Position numbers and translations under genes: made by a program. DNA of 32,965 nt from Acidobacteria bacterium Ga0077553 (GTDB taxonomy: Bacteria > Acidobacteriota > Terriglobia > Bryobacterales > Bryobacteraceae), in the NCBI GenBank assembly GCA_001464575.1, contig LNFE01000224.1, positions 1 through 32,965 on the forward strand, given 5' to 3'. Position 1 is the stretch's first letter; every line of letters starts with the position of its first letter. The notes beneath the pieces are model-generated. The model saw only the letters and a program-made list of their open reading frames with translations. It did not search any database and was not told where the DNA came from. This document shows positions 3,716 through 26,379 of this stretch, in pieces.

Positions 3716-5120
3716 TATCGATGGAGAGCCGCTTAATCTTCTGGTTCAGCGTCGACAAGGGGATCCGCAACATCTCCGCCGCCTCGGTCTGTGAAAAGTT
3801 CACGGTCTCCAAGACTTCCAGGATCCGCTGCCGCTCGAATGCGGCCACGATCTCATACAGCGAGGCATCCGCCGGAACGTTCCCAGTATCATCGGTCCGG
3901 ATCTTGATGCCTCCCGCGTGCAGCAGCGAATCCGGCAGGACGGTCACCGGCACAACGGCCTCATTGGCCAGGACTACCGCCCGCTCCACCGCGTTTTCCA
4001 ACTCCCGGACGTTCCCTGGCCAGTTATGCTCTAACAGGAGCTGCAAGGCATCGGGCTCAAAACGCAGCGTCGACTTCCCTTCCGGATTCAGGAATTTCGC
4101 GTTCTCCTGGCAGAAACGGTCAAAGAAGTGCTGCGTTAACAGTGGAATATCTTCCTTGCGTTCCCGTAACGGCGGCAAAGGGATATTGATGACGTTCAGG
4201 CGATAGTACAGGTCTTCGCGGAACTTCTTCTCCTCCACCAACTTCTTCAAGTCCTCGTTCGTCGCCGCCACCAGCCGGACATCCACCTGCATGACATCGG
4301 TAGACCCGAGCGGCATGAACTCGCGCTCCTGAATCACCCGCAGCAGTTTGGCCTGGGTCTCGAGGGAGATGTTGCCGATCTCATCGAAAAAGATCGTCCC
4401 CCGGTTGGCAATCTCGAAGACGCCTTTGTGCGAAGCAATTGCCCCGGTGAACGCGCCTTTCACGTGACCGAACAGCGTCGATTCCAGCAGATCCGGCGGC
4501 AGTCCCCCGGAGTTCACGGCGATAAAAGGCTGCTCGGATCGGGTGGAGTTCGTATGAATCGACTTCGCAATTAGCTCTTTGCCTGTGCCTGTCTCTCCGG
4601 TGATCAGGATCGTGGCCCTCGACGGCGCCACCTGCGCGACAAGATCGAGCACTTTCAACATCCGCTCGCTTTTGCCGACAATGTTCGGGAAGGAATAGCG
4701 CTGCTTCAGTGCCCGCTTTAGTTCGGTGTTTTCCCGCTCCAGATGGTTCTTGGCGATCTGCCGGTCGATTTCGATCAGCAGCTTCTCGTTATCCCACGGC
4801 TTAGAGAAGTAGTCGTTGGCGCCGGACTTGAGCGCCTGCACGGCGACGTCGATGGAGCCATACGCGGTGATGAGAAAGATGGGCGTGGAGCGGTCGCGCT
4901 GCCGCACTTCGGCGAGCACGTCCATGCCCGACTTATCCGGCATCATTAAGTCCAGCAGGACTAAGTCGTAAGTAGATTGCTCCATGCGGCGAAGGCCGGC
5001 GTTGGCCAGCGGGGCAAGTTCGACGGTATACCCTTCGAGAGTGAGCAGCGTTTCGAGAGATTCGCGGATATCTTCTTCGTCGTCGATGATTAAAATACGG
5101 CCCTTAGGGGCGGTGGGCAT
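3690..5120 (-). CDS. NtrC-family sigma-54-dependent response regulator
   Basis: A 476-residue activator with three domains. The receiver (1-120) has acidic residues DDEED at 13-17, phosphoacceptor Asp57 in LLDLMMPD and Lys107. The AAA+ domain has Walker A GETGTGK (175-181), the sigma-54 contact loop GAFTGA (222-227) and Walker B FFDEIG (244-249). A Fis-type helix-turn-helix sits at the C-terminus ([10 protein letters not shown] to IKRLSID). It should bind an enhancer and drive transcription by sigma-54 RNA polymerase when phosphorylated. Its start overlaps the end of the upstream kinase gene by 17 nt, so that kinase is almost certainly the partner. Target genes are unknown; I saw no convincing -24/-12 promoter in the window. 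Confidence 0.95.
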
Positions 5121-21124: not shown

Positions 21125-22270
21125 ATGAGAATAATTGGCTTGGACGCCGTTCGTCAGGAACGCGTCATCCTCGACTTCGGAGCCGTTATCACGGGCGTCA
21201 CCGAGTTGCTCGATCCCTCCGTCCAAGAGCTCGACTACGTAGCTCCCGGCTTCATCGATCTCCAGGTGAACGGCTACGCCGGGGTGGACTACAACTCGCC
21301 CGTGACCAGCCACGAAGAGATCGCCCGGAGTTTGCGGGTGCAGTTCGCCTGCGGTACTACCCGTCTGCTGCCTACCGTCATCACGGGCACCTACGAGGGG
21401 ATGCGTGGCTCGCTCGCCAATCTCTATGCCGCCAAGCAGGCGCTGCCGGAGGGGATCGCCATCGAGGGATTCCATGTCGAAGGCCCGCATATTTCCGCCG
21501 AGGAGGGTCCGCGAGGGGCCCATCCGATTCAATGTGTGCGGAAGCCTGACGTCGACGAATACAAGGGCTGGCAAGAGGTTACGGGTGGTTTAGTGAAGTT
21601 GGTTACCATCTCTCCCGAGTGGCCCGAGGCGCCCGCCTACATCGAGGCGCTTGTGCGCGAAGGCGTAGTTGTGGCGATCGGGCACACGGGAGCCAACCGC
21701 CAGCAGATCCAGGACGCGGTGTCGGCCGGCGCGACACTTTCGACGCATCTGGGCAACGGGGCGCATGGCGTGCTGGCGCGGCACCCCAACTATTTGTGGG
21801 AGCAGATGGCGGAGGATCGCCTCGCCGCCGATTTCATCGTCGACGGGATTCATATTGGAGAGGCTTTCCTGCGGGTCGCTTTGCGGGCAAAGGGGGTGGA
21901 GCGGTCGATTCTGGTGACGGACGCCAGCGCCCCAGCCGGTGCCGCCCCGGGCCGGTACCAGTTGGGCGACCAGTGGGTGGACCTGACGCCGGATGACCGG
22001 GTGGTCCTGGCGGGCCAGACGCGTTTGGCGGGCAGCGCGTTGAAAATGCACAAGTCGATTGAGAACGTGATGCGGATGACGGGGGTTACGTTGCCGCAGG
22101 CGGTGACGATGGCCACCCGCAATCCGGCGCGGGTGGGCCGGATCAGCGGCCGCCAGCGCGGCTTGGTGACGGGCGAACGGGCGGACTTCGTGGTGTTTTC
22201 GATGGCCGAGGGCCAGATCCAGGTGGAAGAGACGTGGATCAGCGGCGAGCGGGTTTATCAGGCCGCTTAA
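21125..22270 (+). CDS. nagA: N-acetylglucosamine-6-phosphate deacetylase
   Basis: 381 residues, the usual NagA length. Amidohydrolase-fold motifs in order: APGFIDLQVNGYAGVD (45-54; as in other NagA proteins the classical HxH is replaced), GFHVEGPHIS with metal ligand Glu119, AIGHTGA with His187, STHLGNGAHG with His208, FIVDGIHIG, and catalytic Asp266 in VTDASAPAG; SALKMHKSIENV is also typical. It deacetylates GlcNAc-6-phosphate to glucosamine-6-phosphate in amino-sugar or cell-wall recycling. A GAAGGA lies 14 nt before the ATG, farther than usual. No nagB or transporter is adjacent. The following riboswitch operon starts 50 nt after its stop. Confidence 0.93.
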   Translation: MRIIGLDAVRQERVILDFGAVITGVTELLDPSVQELDYVAPGFIDLQVNGYAGVDYNSPVTSHEEIARSLRVQFACGTTRLLPTVITGTYEGMRGSLANLYAAKQALPEGIAIEGFHVEGPHISAEEGPRGAHPIQCVRKPDVDEYKGWQEVTGGLVKLVTISPEWPEAPAYIEALVREGVVVAIGHTGANRQQIQDAVSAGATLSTHLGNGAHGVLARHPNYLWEQMAEDRLAADFIVDGIHIGEAFLRVALRAKGVERSILVTDASAPAGAAPGRYQLGDQWVDLTPDDRVVLAGQTRLAGSALKMHKSIENVMRMTGVTLPQAVTMATRNPARVGRISGRQRGLVTGERADFVVFSMAEGQIQVEETWISGERVYQAA

Positions 22271-22277
22271 GCCTCGC

Positions 22278-22307
22278 TTGAAGAGTGCCAGGGGCTGCCT
22301 TTAAGAT
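22278..22307 (+). promoter_or_regulatory. Candidate sigma-70-type promoter of the riboswitch operon
   Basis: TTGAAG (22278-22283) and TAAGAT (22302-22307) are each four-of-six matches to TTGACA and TATAAT, spaced by 18 bases. Transcription would start near 22314, just before the first riboswitch hairpin at 22320. A GGGGCT/AGCCCC inverted repeat (22291-22319) overlaps it and might instead be part of a nagA terminator. Confidence 0.4.
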
Positions 22308-22319
22308 ATGGGTAGCCCC

Positions 22320-22368
22320 ACCGGGACGACCCGGTACCCAGTAGTAGGCTTAGCCAGGACGACTTGGC
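22320..22368 (+). promoter_or_regulatory. Guanidine-II (mini-ykkC) riboswitch aptamer
   Basis: Two tandem hairpins, each with a 6-bp stem and an identical ACGA loop. P1 is ACCGGG-ACGA-CCCGGT (22320-22335). P2 is GCCAGG-ACGA-CTTGGC (22353-22368, one G-T pair). The linker is 17 nt. Both loops are flanked by GG and C, matching the mini-ykkC consensus of two hairpins with ACGR loops whose CG bases interact when guanidinium binds. P2 ends 16 nt before the AGGAG of the next gene, the normal position for this class. The stems differ in sequence while both keep pairing, which is evidence of selection on structure. Basis: pattern seen directly; class from established knowledge. Confidence 0.9.
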
Positions 22369-22398
22369 ATCAGATCTCTGCCCCAGGAGTTGATGCCA
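22365..22398 (+). promoter_or_regulatory. Alternative hairpin sequestering the ribosome-binding site
   Basis: TGGCATCA (22365-22372), which includes four bases of the P2 3' strand, is perfectly complementary to TGATGCCA (22391-22398), which ends on the A of the ATG. Inside this loop CTCT (22376-22379) can pair with GGAG (22386-22389) of the AGGAG Shine-Dalgarno. P2 and this hairpin cannot form together. Inferred logic: without guanidine the start region is closed, and guanidine-stabilised P1/P2 opens it, an ON switch acting on translation. Confidence 0.75.
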
Positions 22399-23417
22399 TG
22401 ACCCACACCCACTTCGACGCTCTCCCCCTCGTCGATGTCTCCGGCCTCCAGGCCTCCGACCCGGCCACACGGCTCGCCACCGCCCAAGCCCTCGGCCGCG
22501 CCGCCCGCGACTGCGGCTTCTTCTACGCCACCGGCCACGGTCTTCCCACCGCACTCACCGAAGCCCTGATCACCCAAGCGCAGTCCTTCTTCGCCCTCCC
22601 CATCGAAGAAAAGATGCGCTGGTACATCGGCCTTTCCCCCAACCACCGCGGCTACGTCCCTGAAGGCGAAGAGACCTTCGCCGCCGGCACCTACGATCGC
22701 AAAGAAGCCTTCGATCTCAGCTTCGAGCTGCCCACCCTCGACCCCACAGCCCCCACCCTCGGCCCGAACGTCTGGCCCAGTCTCCCCGGCTTCCAACCCG
22801 CCGTCAGCGCCTATTACAACGCCGCCTTTGCCCTCGGCCGCACCCTCCTCCGCGGATTCGCTCTCGCCCTCGACCTCGAAGAATCCTACTTCGACCGCTT
22901 CGTCACCCAGCCGCCCTCCCAACTCCGGCTGATCCACTATCCCTATCTCCCGGATGTCGTGGACGCCCCCGGCATCGGCGCCCACACCGACTACGAGTGC
23001 TTCACCATCCTGCTCCCCACCGCCCCCGGCCTCGAAGTGATGAATGGCGCGGGAACTTGGATTGATGCCCCGCCCGTCCCCGGCGCGGTCGTCATTAACA
23101 TCGGCGACATGCTCGAAACCTTTACAAATGGCGAACTGATCGCCACCTCCCACCGCGTCCGGAAAGTGGAGCAGGAGCGCTACTCGTTCCCCCTCTTCTT
23201 TACCTGTGACTATCACACCCTGGTCGAGCCCCTCCCCCCATTCGTTTCCGCATCGAACCCGGCCCGCTACCCGGCCCTTGTGGCCGGCGAGCATCTCTAC
23301 GCCCAAACCGTCCAGAGCTTCACTTATCTCAAACAACGGCTCCAGCGGGGGGAACTCCGCCTGCCGGACGGCGCCCGGCCCCTGTCCTCCTTCGGCCAGG
23401 AAGCCAGGACCAAATGA
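22398..23417 (+). CDS. 2-oxoglutarate/Fe(II)-dependent oxygenase, isopenicillin N synthase family, under guanidine-II riboswitch
   Basis: 339 residues from ATG 22398, with AGGAG at 22385-22389; the open frame runs 30 codons further upstream, but that part covers the riboswitch. N-terminal DIOX_N region: LPLVDVSGL, RDCGFFYATGHGLP and FFALPIEEKM. The C-terminal 2OG-FeII_Oxy core has iron ligands His196 and Asp198 in GIGAHTDYECFTILL and His252 in SHRVRK, and 2-oxoglutarate ligands Arg261 and Ser263 in RYSFPLFF. All active-site residues are present. Family members hydroxylate, desaturate or cyclise small molecules. The riboswitch suggests a substrate or product that is guanidine or a guanidino compound (arginine, homoarginine and similar); this is inference. 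The stop overlaps the next start by ATGA. Confidence 0.92.
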   Translation: MTHTHFDALPLVDVSGLQASDPATRLATAQALGRAARDCGFFYATGHGLPTALTEALITQAQSFFALPIEEKMRWYIGLSPNHRGYVPEGEETFAAGTYDRKEAFDLSFELPTLDPTAPTLGPNVWPSLPGFQPAVSAYYNAAFALGRTLLRGFALALDLEESYFDRFVTQPPSQLRLIHYPYLPDVVDAPGIGAHTDYECFTILLPTAPGLEVMNGAGTWIDAPPVPGAVVINIGDMLETFTNGELIATSHRVRKVEQERYSFPLFFTCDYHTLVEPLPPFVSASNPARYPALVAGEHLYAQTVQSFTYLKQRLQRGELRLPDGARPLSSFGQEARTK

Positions 23418-24196
23418 CCCTGCTCGAAGTGGCTCAACGCCAGCCGACGCTCCCCAACCCCGCCGTCCCCGAATGGACCATGGGCTGCTTCCGTCGCCGA
23501 TCGATCACGTTCTACTCCGGGGAAACCGATACGGAAACCCAGGTCTACTGGCTCCAATCCGGCCGCCTCTGCGCCGACTTCCGGTTCGGCCTTCCCGGCC
23601 AGGTGGAAGCGGGCGTGGCCGAGGCGACGTGGGACGGCCGGCAGATGCGATGGTCTCAATGGACGGCTCTCGATGACCGCGACAAGTGGCCGGAACCGGG
23701 CGAGTTACGCCGTGTCGGCAACAGCCTGATCGAATTCGCCCCCAGCGGCGCCTATGTGGAGGACTGGCGGCTGCAACCGCACGAACCCGGCATGGTGGCC
23801 GGACTTCGCCTGGTCGACGAGACCGACGAGGCTACCGGGCAGATCGTTCACTCGGGCGGCGGTCTCGTCGTATGCGGCCAACATCTCGCTCTCATCCGCG
23901 GCGGCGCCTCGTTCACTGCGGCTTACGGAGTCCGCCAGTCCGACGGGGCAGTCTCGCCCGTCCTGCGCCTCGACGGCAATGATCCTGGCTGGAGCCTTGA
24001 GGGCTTTGAACCGGGCCCTGGCGGGCTCACGCAAAAGCTGGTCTGCCAAGGCCGCCGCATCCTGCGCCGCTATACGGTCGACACCCTGATCCCCCACTTT
24101 TCGTTCCCTGTCGCGACCTCGGCCACGGATTTTGGCCAGCAGTGGCTCGAGCGGGAGGCCGGTACCGTACTGGCTCTGAGCCGTACGGTCTACTAG
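23414..24196 (+). CDS. Protein of unknown function coupled to the guanidine-switched oxygenase
   Basis: 260 residues, soluble, without signal peptide or membrane segment. Tryptophan-rich and beta-rich in appearance: RRRSITFYSGETDTETQVYW, LQSGRLCADFRF, WSQWTALDD, AYVEDWRLQPHEPG and HSGGGLVVCGQHLALIRGG. The YWLQ..RL.ADFRF and YVEDWR pattern recalls small lipocalin-like proteins of the HRI1 type that I have seen annotated as hypothetical; this is a weak recollection, not an assignment. The ATGA overlap with the oxygenase means both are translated from the same riboswitch-controlled message, so a role as partner, ligand-binding protein or second enzyme is plausible. Function unknown. Confidence 0.75.
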   Translation: MTLLEVAQRQPTLPNPAVPEWTMGCFRRRSITFYSGETDTETQVYWLQSGRLCADFRFGLPGQVEAGVAEATWDGRQMRWSQWTALDDRDKWPEPGELRRVGNSLIEFAPSGAYVEDWRLQPHEPGMVAGLRLVDETDEATGQIVHSGGGLVVCGQHLALIRGGASFTAAYGVRQSDGAVSPVLRLDGNDPGWSLEGFEPGPGGLTQKLVCQGRRILRRYTVDTLIPHFSFPVATSATDFGQQWLEREAGTVLALSRTVY

Positions 24197-24241: not shown

Positions 24242-25744
24242 TTGCCGCCCCATCGCTGGTTCTTCGTTGTCTTCTTTCTCGTTTCTTTCGGCGTGCGGCT
24301 GTTCTACTCCCATACGCTGTTTTTGAACCCCGACGAGTGCTTGCACGTGAACGCCGGTTCCTCCGCTCAATGGGCGGTGTATCATCATCCGCCGCTCTTG
24401 CTGTGGTGGCTCTGGGCCGCGACACTCGTCTCGAATCAGGAATGGTGGCTGCGCCTGGCGCCCTGCCTCGCCGGGGCGATTACGCCTATCGCGGCGGGCC
24501 TGTGGCTGCGCCGGTGGATGCACCCCGCCGCCGCATGGGGGCTCGCCTCTCTGCTCGCATTCACCCCGAATCTCGTTCTGCTCTCCGTCCAACTGCGCGG
24601 CTACTCGATGGCGCTTCTCGGCATCGCCATGGCTCTCTATGCGTTGGACCGCGCCTACAGCGAAACCAGCCGCCGTTGGCTGCTGATCCATTTTGCCGCC
24701 CTCGCCTTCGCCATCCTCGCCGAGTTCATGACGGCGTGGGTGGCCTTGGCGATGGGTTTGTATGGGCTCCTTCGCTTGCTGCGGGAGCGGGAGGTTCGGA
24801 GTCTCGTCCCGGCCTGGTGCGTCGGGCAATCCGTATGCGTGGGCCTCTACGTGGTCCTTTATCTTTTCATCGTGCGTCCGATCGTCGAGCAGCATACGCC
24901 AGCGGGGTTGGTCGACATCTACCTCCGGGGCGCGTTTCCGCGGCCCGGCGAAAGCTTGCTGCGGTTCACCGCGATCGGGTCCTTTAAACAGGTGGTCTAC
25001 ATCACAGGAAGCATGGCGGGTGGCGCCGTGGCGACGGCTTTCCTGCTCCTCGGCCTCTTCCATTGGTCCATCCGAAGGGACAGCCGCGTGATCCTTATTA
25101 CCGCGCTCGTATTGACCGTCCTGGGGGCGATCGGCGAGTTCTTTCCGTACGGACGCAGCCGCCACACCGTAGCCCTGGGCTTGCTCAGCCTGGCCGCCGT
25201 TGGTGCCGGCCTCGACGTTGTCGCCCGGCGCTGGGCGCCGATCCGCTGGGCCGCGCCGGCTGCGATCCTTGCCTTGGCCTTCCTCACGCCACTGTCCGAC
25301 GTCCACAATCTGCCCCTGGAGGTCTGGAACAAGCAGAACTGGGACCGCTCGATTGCGCATTTCGAGCGGCTGGTTCCGCGTGGTGCAACCGTATTGGCCG
25401 ACGGCGAGGCGTTGCAGATGCTCCAGGCGCGCCTGGCCGCGCGGAACGACCGGGCGCGGCACACCGGCGAGCCGAACACGCTAGGAGTCCTGGGCATCAC
25501 GATGGTATCGCCCACTTGGGATTGGCCCGCGATCCCGGACGAGCGGGTGACCGCGGAAGCTTCCCGCTTGCCCGAAGGAATTTGGCTGCTCGATACGGGA
25601 TTCAACGTCGGTTGGGCCAGGACGCGCTGGCGCGCGCTCGGCGTGGAGGTTCTGGTGGATGAGCCAGGCGTCTTCCTCCTCGGCCGCTTGCGGCCGGCGT
25701 CCCGTTCGAGTAAGCTCATCGACGAAGTGAGGCCCGGCAAATGA
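24242..25744 (+). CDS. GT-C/ArnT-like glycosyltransferase membrane protein
   Basis: 500 residues with about ten predicted helices through residue 360, then a soluble C-terminal part. The first helix (WFFVVFFLVSFGVRLFY) is followed by LNPDECLHVN, the acidic loop expected after helix 1 in GT-C transferases of the PMT/ArnT type, which use lipid-linked sugars. The C-terminal region (about 360-490) reads as a periplasmic domain. Start appears to be TTG 24242, but AGGAGG (24235-24240) is only one base upstream, which is unusually close; no better in-frame start exists. It follows the unknown gene by 45 nt and overlaps the dioxygenase start by ATGA. Substrate unknown. Confidence 0.7.
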   Translation: MPPHRWFFVVFFLVSFGVRLFYSHTLFLNPDECLHVNAGSSAQWAVYHHPPLLLWWLWAATLVSNQEWWLRLAPCLAGAITPIAAGLWLRRWMHPAAAWGLASLLAFTPNLVLLSVQLRGYSMALLGIAMALYALDRAYSETSRRWLLIHFAALAFAILAEFMTAWVALAMGLYGLLRLLREREVRSLVPAWCVGQSVCVGLYVVLYLFIVRPIVEQHTPAGLVDIYLRGAFPRPGESLLRFTAIGSFKQVVYITGSMAGGAVATAFLLLGLFHWSIRRDSRVILITALVLTVLGAIGEFFPYGRSRHTVALGLLSLAAVGAGLDVVARRWAPIRWAAPAAILALAFLTPLSDVHNLPLEVWNKQNWDRSIAHFERLVPRGATVLADGEALQMLQARLAARNDRARHTGEPNTLGVLGITMVSPTWDWPAIPDERVTAEASRLPEGIWLLDTGFNVGWARTRWRALGVEVLVDEPGVFLLGRLRPASRSSKLIDEVRPGK

Positions 25745-26379
25745 AAAAGACAACGCCCACGCGGCGCGAGATTATGGAGCGATGCATCACGGGAGGCCTG
25801 CTGGCAGGTTCGGGCGCTCTCTCGCAAATGCAATTGTTGGCTTACTGGGAAGAAACCGAAAAGCAGGCGATGAAGCCGACGGCGGCCGATGTCCTGGGAC
25901 CGTTCTTCCGCAAGGGCGCTCCCAATCTCCGGACCCTGCGCGGGCCGAAAGATCCCGGGTTTCCTCTGCTCGTATCCGGCCGCGTAGTGAACGTGAAAGG
26001 CCAGTTGGTCGAAGGCGCCACTGTGGATTTCTGGCACGCCGACCATGCCGGACGCTACGATACGCGCGGGTATAAGTTCCGTACGAAAGTGACTCCGGAC
26101 GCCAAGGGCGACTATGCCGTCGAAACCATCTTTCCCGGCCACTATGGCGACCGCCCCGCGCAACACATCCACTATCTGATCGCCGCACCGGGCCATAAGC
26201 CCCTCATCACCCAAGCCTACTTCGCCACCGACCCGTTCTTTGAAGGCGACCCGGTGAAGAACTGGAACAAGCGGGGCTTGGCCGCCAGTCGCGATCTGAT
26301 CATGCCGGTAAAGCTATTCGAAGGCCCCGCCGCCCCGCGCGCCGAGATTCGCTTCGATATTGTCTTGGAGAAGGCGTAA
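25741..26379 (+). CDS. Intradiol ring-cleavage dioxygenase-like protein
   Basis: 212 residues. Family core: DVLGPFFRKGAP, VSGRVVNVKGQLVEGATVDF, WHADHAGRYDTRG, PDAKGDYAVETIFPGHYGDR and AQHIHYLIAAPGH. Non-haem Fe(III) ligands Tyr106, Tyr135, His142 and His144 are all present. An N-terminal RREIMERCITGGLLAGSGAL resembles a twin-arginine export signal, so it may act outside the cytoplasm, unlike catechol or protocatechuate dioxygenases. Its aromatic substrate is unknown and no ring-degradation genes are nearby. ATGA overlap with the glycosyltransferase-like gene; its stop abuts the next ATG. Confidence 0.88.
   Translation: MKKTTPTRREIMERCITGGLLAGSGALSQMQLLAYWEETEKQAMKPTAADVLGPFFRKGAPNLRTLRGPKDPGFPLLVSGRVVNVKGQLVEGATVDFWHADHAGRYDTRGYKFRTKVTPDAKGDYAVETIFPGHYGDRPAQHIHYLIAAPGHKPLITQAYFATDPFFEGDPVKNWNKRGLAASRDLIMPVKLFEGPAAPRAEIRFDIVLEKA

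Follow-up and report, generated by a model that had tools for sequence, protein, structure and literature searches.

What is an RNA of the guanidine-II type doing in front of a gene for a 2-oxoglutarate/Fe(II) oxygenase? The question is raised by the stretch of DNA analyzed here (the window, 32,965 nucleotides), a contig of an acidobacterial genome of 6.45 Mb (308 contigs, 92.9% complete). A sequence-only reading had recognized two hairpins of this riboswitch class, had regarded the oxygenase as a different, unexplained output for it, and had sought the reason in chemistry on arginine or homoarginine of the kind known from the ethylene-forming enzyme (EFE). Our results point to another answer: the RNA is very probably a translational ON switch for a two-gene operon, mgdH-mgdL. 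The features concerned are collected in Table 1.

Table 1. Features of the leader and of the adjoining genes in the window
Feature	Position	Strand	Basis
nagA-like deacetylase (amidohydrolase), upstream neighbour	21125..22270	+	Amidohydro_1; TIGR00221 208.1 bits, below cut-off 225.65
P1 hairpin, guanidine-II aptamer, ACGA loop	22320..22335	+	sequence reading; RF01068 alignment
P2 hairpin, guanidine-II aptamer, ACGA loop	22353..22368	+	sequence reading; RF01068 alignment
Alternative masking hairpin, 22365-22373 paired with 22390-22398, encloses Shine-Dalgarno	22365..22398	+	minimum-energy fold
Shine-Dalgarno GGAG	22386..22389	+	sequence reading; conserved in L003
mgdH homologue, 2OG/Fe(II) oxygenase, probable methylguanidine hydroxylase	22398..23417	+	DIOX_N + 2OG-FeII_Oxy; 61% to V. 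boliviensis LC1
mgdL homologue, probable N-(hydroxymethyl)guanidine lyase	23414..24196	+	D55/R57 = published D49/R51; profile match

The leader RNA

Both hairpins lie 5' of the Shine-Dalgarno sequence (SD) and of the mgdH ATG, at exactly the coordinates given by the sequence-only reading. P1 (ACCGGG-ACGA-CCCGGT) and P2 (GCCAGG-ACGA-CTTGGC) each have a 6-bp stem, that of P2 including one G-U pair, and are separated by a linker of 17 nt. Two ACGR hairpins arranged in this way (stems of at least 5 bp, hairpins 3-120 nt apart) occurred in 1 of 4000 mononucleotide-shuffled 400-mers. Single GGACGACY cores are not significant, with four in the window and 3.35 expected.

A scan of the window against Rfam at the gathering threshold listed nothing. 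The match to RF01068 (22318-22367, plus strand) scores 28.3 bits (E 3.8e-4), below the gathering score of 32; it is the sole Rfam match in 22200-22420 at E-values up to 10. Among the 150 of 1570 first-look candidates scored, it is also the top RF01068 match found in the whole genome (E 0.0026), the runner-up having 21.2 bits (E 0.14). The homologous leader of Candidatus Sulfopaludibacter sp. SbA3 (locus L003, genome G396), a member of the same genus (Acidobacteriota, Bryobacterales according to NCBI), reaches 32.3 bits. The score check proposed earlier thus fails for the window copy itself and succeeds for its relative, and the guanidine-II class suggested by the sequence-only reading is upheld. 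Membership of the window copy is based on this relative, on covariation and on the downstream genes, not on its own score; judged from these comparisons of sequence, the leader RNA is a guanidine-II (RF01068) aptamer.

Between the window and L003, 82 of 89 aligned leader positions are identical (22309-22397), and 17 of 37 in the adjoining spacer (22271-22308). A wider alignment was built from 13 of the 17 known leaders described below (L016, L023, L070 and L079 were left out), and all figures in this paragraph refer to it. The cells of P1 and P2 are paired in 97.4% of cases, a value reached by none of 500 shuffles. Compensatory changes are present in the stems: the outer pair of P1 is A-U in the window, G-C in L003 and U-A, G-C or U-G in the other rows, and the third pair of P2 from the loop, U-A in 11 of the 13 rows, is A-U in the remaining two, the window and L003. 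Eleven cells have both partners changed, a number that none of the 500 shuffles reached, and the covariation score of 0.280, against 0.121 when shuffled, exceeds that of each of the 500 shuffles and of every slid control. Two weaker measures do not stand out strongly, namely the number of pairs changing on both sides (4 of 12 against 2.7 when shuffled; 76 of 500 shuffles as high) and that of further pair types (9 against 6.9; 23 of 500 as high). As seven of the 12 pairs are invariant and one varies on one side only, the support from covariation comes from four pairs.

A longer open reading frame, running from an ATG at 22308 through the hairpins, was rejected as not credible, because L003 does not share this ATG. 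Inspection by eye suggested a possible sigma-70-type promoter between nagA and the leader; scanning found none in the window or in L003. No terminator-like site was detected by scanning 22200-22420. The same scan shows one such site in L003, at 4876-4895, before its leader.

The oxygenase and its overlapping partner gene

The reference for the oxygenase was the gene at the mgdH position of Vreelandella boliviensis LC1 (L042), identified by organism, strain and operon position as that of the characterized entry A0A265DXP8. BLASTP aligned the two proteins with 420 bits and 61% identity over residues 6-339. The best relative of solved structure, 9ovh, whose chain is named ethylene/succinate-forming enzyme, gave 195 bits by phmmer (residues 5-284), bits from the two programs being comparable only roughly. 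The alignment indicates close homology to MgdH, beyond the level of the superfamily, and the window oxygenase is probably a methylguanidine hydroxylase. According to the text available for Sinn et al. 2025 (PMC12508155), V. boliviensis MgdH hydroxylates methylguanidine, and the hydroxylated product is cleaved faster to guanidine and formaldehyde in the presence of MgdL, which requires D49 and R51. In Zavarzinia, tandem second oxygenase copies adjoin the mgdH homologue (L037, L039 and L058, near 3900-4970); they are 56-57% identical to the window protein.

The ATG of the following gene overlaps the mgdH stop codon. Its product matches no NCBIfam entry, and no Pfam entry above the cut-off, and the L042 MgdL used as tblastn query at 1e-4 retrieved neither the window protein (L001) nor that of L003. 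Homology to MgdL is indicated by profiles, whose comparison gave 99.3% (E 2.9e-20). The L042 protein, annotated as hypothetical, stands here for MgdL A0A265DXW6 and carries D49 and R51 at the published numbers. D55 and R57 of the window protein align with this catalytic D-x-R pair, and the two, together with W80, E107, Y114, E116 and W118, are invariant in all 56 rows of the MgdL alignment (55 distinct; rows chosen by tblastn at 1e-3, L001 being the window itself). By alignment, the catalytic Asp and Arg thus appear conserved. AlphaFold2 returned a model consisting mostly of strands, in keeping with the published beta-barrel model, with a best mean pLDDT of 78.6 (the other four, 69.8 to 55.9). 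Below E 0.001, this model matches a single PDB entry, 3rby (E 5.4e-4, TM about 0.5), the yeast protein YLR301w, whose title calls it uncharacterized. The product is therefore probably MgdL, N-(hydroxymethyl)guanidine lyase, as far as profiles and residues can tell, and the presence of this adjoining partner makes the mgdH assignment firm.

On the genes, the sequence-only reading is partly supported. That the riboswitch precedes an oxygenase of guanidino-compound metabolism is borne out by MgdH homology; the output that had seemed out of place is explained by that close homology together with the mgdL partner. Arginine, homoarginine or EFE-type chemistry as first choice was dropped, being superseded by the 61% match and the MgdL homologue.

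The nagA-like gene upstream has no known part in the methylguanidine pathway, and gca, cgdA, cgdB and atzF are not found in the window operon, whose neighbours differ. An intradiol-dioxygenase-like protein (PF00775) is encoded near the operon, at 25741-26379. In the genome of the window, 92.9% complete, no match was detected for an SMR exporter or for guanidine carboxylase (gca), and no CgdA/CgdB pair was present, there being one DUF1989 match. Of 19 genomes in the genus, 11 have a gca match (E up to 1e-200), among them the two others that carry mgdH, and the absence of gca here may be an assembly gap. No guanidine-I riboswitch was found at E up to 0.001 in this genome or that of L003. A guanidine hydrolase was considered and rejected, the one ureohydrolase match of the genome being an arginase by TIGR01229; the genome of L003 also has one ureohydrolase match.

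Distribution of the leader and its genes

Of 257 genomes of the order, three carry MgdH (E up to 1e-60), and these three are also the ones with MgdL (E up to 1e-10). A draw of 396 genomes from the phylum gave an MgdH match at 1e-60 in two, the window genome and one at 45% identity. A further genome of the genus, G509, has contigs and coordinates identical to those of G396.

Relatives of the oxygenase were taken from a scan of genome contigs as the best 80 of 579 confirmed. Sixteen of these 80 loci carry a double ACGR hairpin within 400 nt 5' of the matched oxygenase start, so that at least 17 guanidine-II-like leaders, the window included, stand directly before mgdH; 64 of the 80 have no such pair there. 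Window-type MgdL is encoded downstream in all 16 leader-bearing loci among these 80, and six loci (L045, L046, L055, L065, L067 and L077) have an MgdL match of at least 160 aa without a leader. Elsewhere on the same strand of the 80 loci, the double hairpin was seen in 25 of 3559 overlapping tiles, from 12 loci, in most of them just before gca; of those submitted to Rfam, L042, L048 and L065 are confirmed.

A covariance model built from the 13 aligned leaders was searched against 82 sources (891,712 bases) and returned 17 sites at E up to 0.1, each directly before this oxygenase, and no further site. The 13 training rows match by construction; L016, L023, L070 and L079 were recovered without having been used in building it. 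The Rfam gathering score is reached by one of the 17 leaders, L003, the window and 15 others being below it, an indication that methylguanidine use is under guanidine-II control more widely than annotated.

By the tree, those 15 (L016, L023, L032, L033, L036, L038, L043, L053, L060, L063, L070, L071, L074, L079 and L080) belong to loci grouping with Pseudomonas, Marinobacter and Haliea. Their P1-P2 linkers measure 18-65 nt (the available text of PMC7544219 gives 7-40 nt for guanidine-II) and each contains a hairpin in the minimum-energy fold, with z values against shuffles of -0.2 to -3.3, below -2 in 5 of 15; the linkers of the window and L003 have no hairpin to speak of. In the oxygenase tree, a quick tree with some long branches, the loci with the 17 leaders are spread over more than one clade (at least four changes; AU p 3e-11), so the pairing of leader and mgdH was gained or lost more than once.

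In G507 (L104:1490-1503), a genome of the same genus, the oxygenase is 81% identical, no part of the leader is present and mgdH follows nagA at a distance of 8 nt. Control must differ there, and is perhaps by translational coupling to the nagA stop. As L003 falls outside the window and G507 in the tree (support 90), loss of the leader in G507 is the simpler reading. The earlier expectation of hairpins before close homologues accordingly holds for two of three copies in the genus and fails for G507 and for the 64 wider loci; neither absence argues against the window RNA.

Loci of the Paraburkholderia type (L004-L015, L018, L031, L034) combine the oxygenase with cgdA-cgdB-gca; at 1e-4 they gave no match to MgdL, which may be absent from them or too diverged. 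RF01068 matches at E up to 0.01 were also obtained in six other genomes of the order. One, from another genus of the same family (L110:1499-1889), is a guanidine-II RNA over the Rfam cut-off before an SMR-family gene (PF00893). The other five were treated as probable chance matches, with hairpins weak or oddly placed (L112, L117) or no double hairpin by scan (L113, L115, L116).

A proposed switch, its alternatives and known systems

Folding computations show two mutually exclusive structures, since P2 and the masking helix both need 22365-22368. Without ligand, the masking helix, which reaches the start codon, has a probability of about 0.99, and the pairs of P2 have 0.002-0.02. The cost of opening the region from SD to AUG was calculated, after the accessibility averages, for the window and L003 only: with the RNA ending at AUG, it falls from 7.4 to 4.2 kcal/mol in the window and from 8.5 to 5.2 kcal/mol in L003, where masking is the same, when P1 and P2 are imposed. 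Shuffling the flanks gave a drop of the window's size in 5 of 300 cases; the ligand-free cost itself is not unusual (43 of 300 as high). With P1 and P2 imposed, three of the four SD bases are still paired, in a shorter helix, and with a longer piece of coding sequence the mean accessibility of the SD shifts very little (0.15 to 0.17 in the window, 0.03 to 0.05 in L003), so the release of the SD is only partial in the model. Fourteen other leaders (L023 left out) showed no consistent release when folded.

Ligand binding, the direction of switching and the substrate are inferred as follows. In the ligand-free RNA, the region from SD to start codon would be paired with the 3' strand of P2 and the flanking bases, and the translation start would be masked. 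Guanidinium or methylguanidinium would then stabilize P1 and P2 through kissing ACGA loops, the joining of two guanidine-II loops by guanidinium being taken from the literature; as P2 is nearly absent without ligand, the ligand would have to pay about 3-4 kcal/mol. The stabilized P2 would withdraw its own 3' strand from the masking helix and allow translation, and mgdHL so induced would convert methylguanidine into guanidine and formaldehyde. For the guanidine-II RNA of V. boliviensis, the available text of PMC12508155 gives similar binding of guanidine (93 uM) and methylguanidine (83 uM), so that the operon could be induced by its substrate as well as by its product.

That the hairpins are a chance occurrence or a protein-binding inverted repeat, and no riboswitch, is very improbable. 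The score below the gathering threshold and the absence of the hairpins in G507 would agree with it; against it stand the rarity of such a pair in shuffled sequence, covariation in the stems, the footprint shared with L003, and downstream genes homologous to those of guanidine metabolism. An action of the leader on transcription or RNA stability, in place of SD masking, would suit the partial release of the SD in the model and is unlikely rather than far-fetched; scanning found no terminator-like site around the leader, the masking helix runs up to the start codon, and L003 repeats both the masking and the fall in cost.

The oxygenase might also act on another guanidino compound, such as dimethylguanidine, a methylated arginine derivative, or arginine or homoarginine as in EFE and plant 2-ODD-C23, with the riboswitch sensing the guanidine produced. 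In its favour, MgdH relatives make up a large and varied clade (the best 80 of 579 confirmed were kept), the homologues include PDB chains named ethylene/succinate-forming enzyme, and published MgdH also accepts N,N-dimethylguanidine, as the available text of PMC12508155 has it. We consider this quite improbable, given the 61% identity to MgdH over residues 6-339 and the overlapping next gene, a lyase homologue with its catalytic residues intact. A translational switch for methylguanidine use is retained as the preferred reading.

Riboswitch and enzymes are of known kinds; as to the stand-alone guanidine-II-mgdHL arrangement, a search with supplements and subscription papers outside its range found no paper placing guanidine-II directly before mgdH or in Acidobacteriota. 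With this arrangement, a puzzling combination of riboswitch and gene becomes a pathway open to testing: the demethylation of methylguanidine in Acidobacteriota, outside a guanidine carboxylase operon. Control of only the demethylase by guanidine-II would agree with the reported failure of a guanidine-II RNA to distinguish methylguanidine from guanidine (PMC12508155, available text), and methylguanidine would then be a natural inducer. More speculatively, guanidine-II RNAs before mgdHL might represent a branch that has mostly escaped annotation, that was gained or lost repeatedly and that senses methylguanidine over guanidine in vivo; in its gammaproteobacterial members, a hairpin in the 18-65-nt linker would bring P1 and P2 together.

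Among 2OG oxygenases that release guanidine, EFE and the plant homoarginine-6-hydroxylases belong to the same superfamily as the window oxygenase. The EFE chains, to which the comparison was confined, are much more distant in sequence, and the available text of PMC12186494 and PMC12508155 mentions no MgdL partner for these enzymes. The closest known system is that of V. boliviensis LC1, where a homologous lyase, likewise with the catalytic D-x-R, comes after the homologous hydroxylase and where a guanidine-II riboswitch belongs to the same regulon (PMC12508155). The order in L042, cgdA-cgdB-guanidine-II-gca-mgdH-mgdL-atzF, is that of the published operon as far as the available text describes it: mgdHL lies inside a guanidine carboxylase operon, with guanidine-I leading and guanidine-II before gca. 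In the window, by contrast, no gca was found in the genome, mgdHL lies behind nagA, and guanidine-II stands directly before mgdH. The leader resembles RF01068 (mini-ykkC) in its two ACGR-loop hairpins, its 17-nt linker and its place close upstream of SD and start codon. It differs from the published guanidine-II model, which in the available text of PMC9094411 has a putative anti-SD in the P1-P2 linker, in that the predicted masking strand is the 3' strand of P2 itself with the bases after it.
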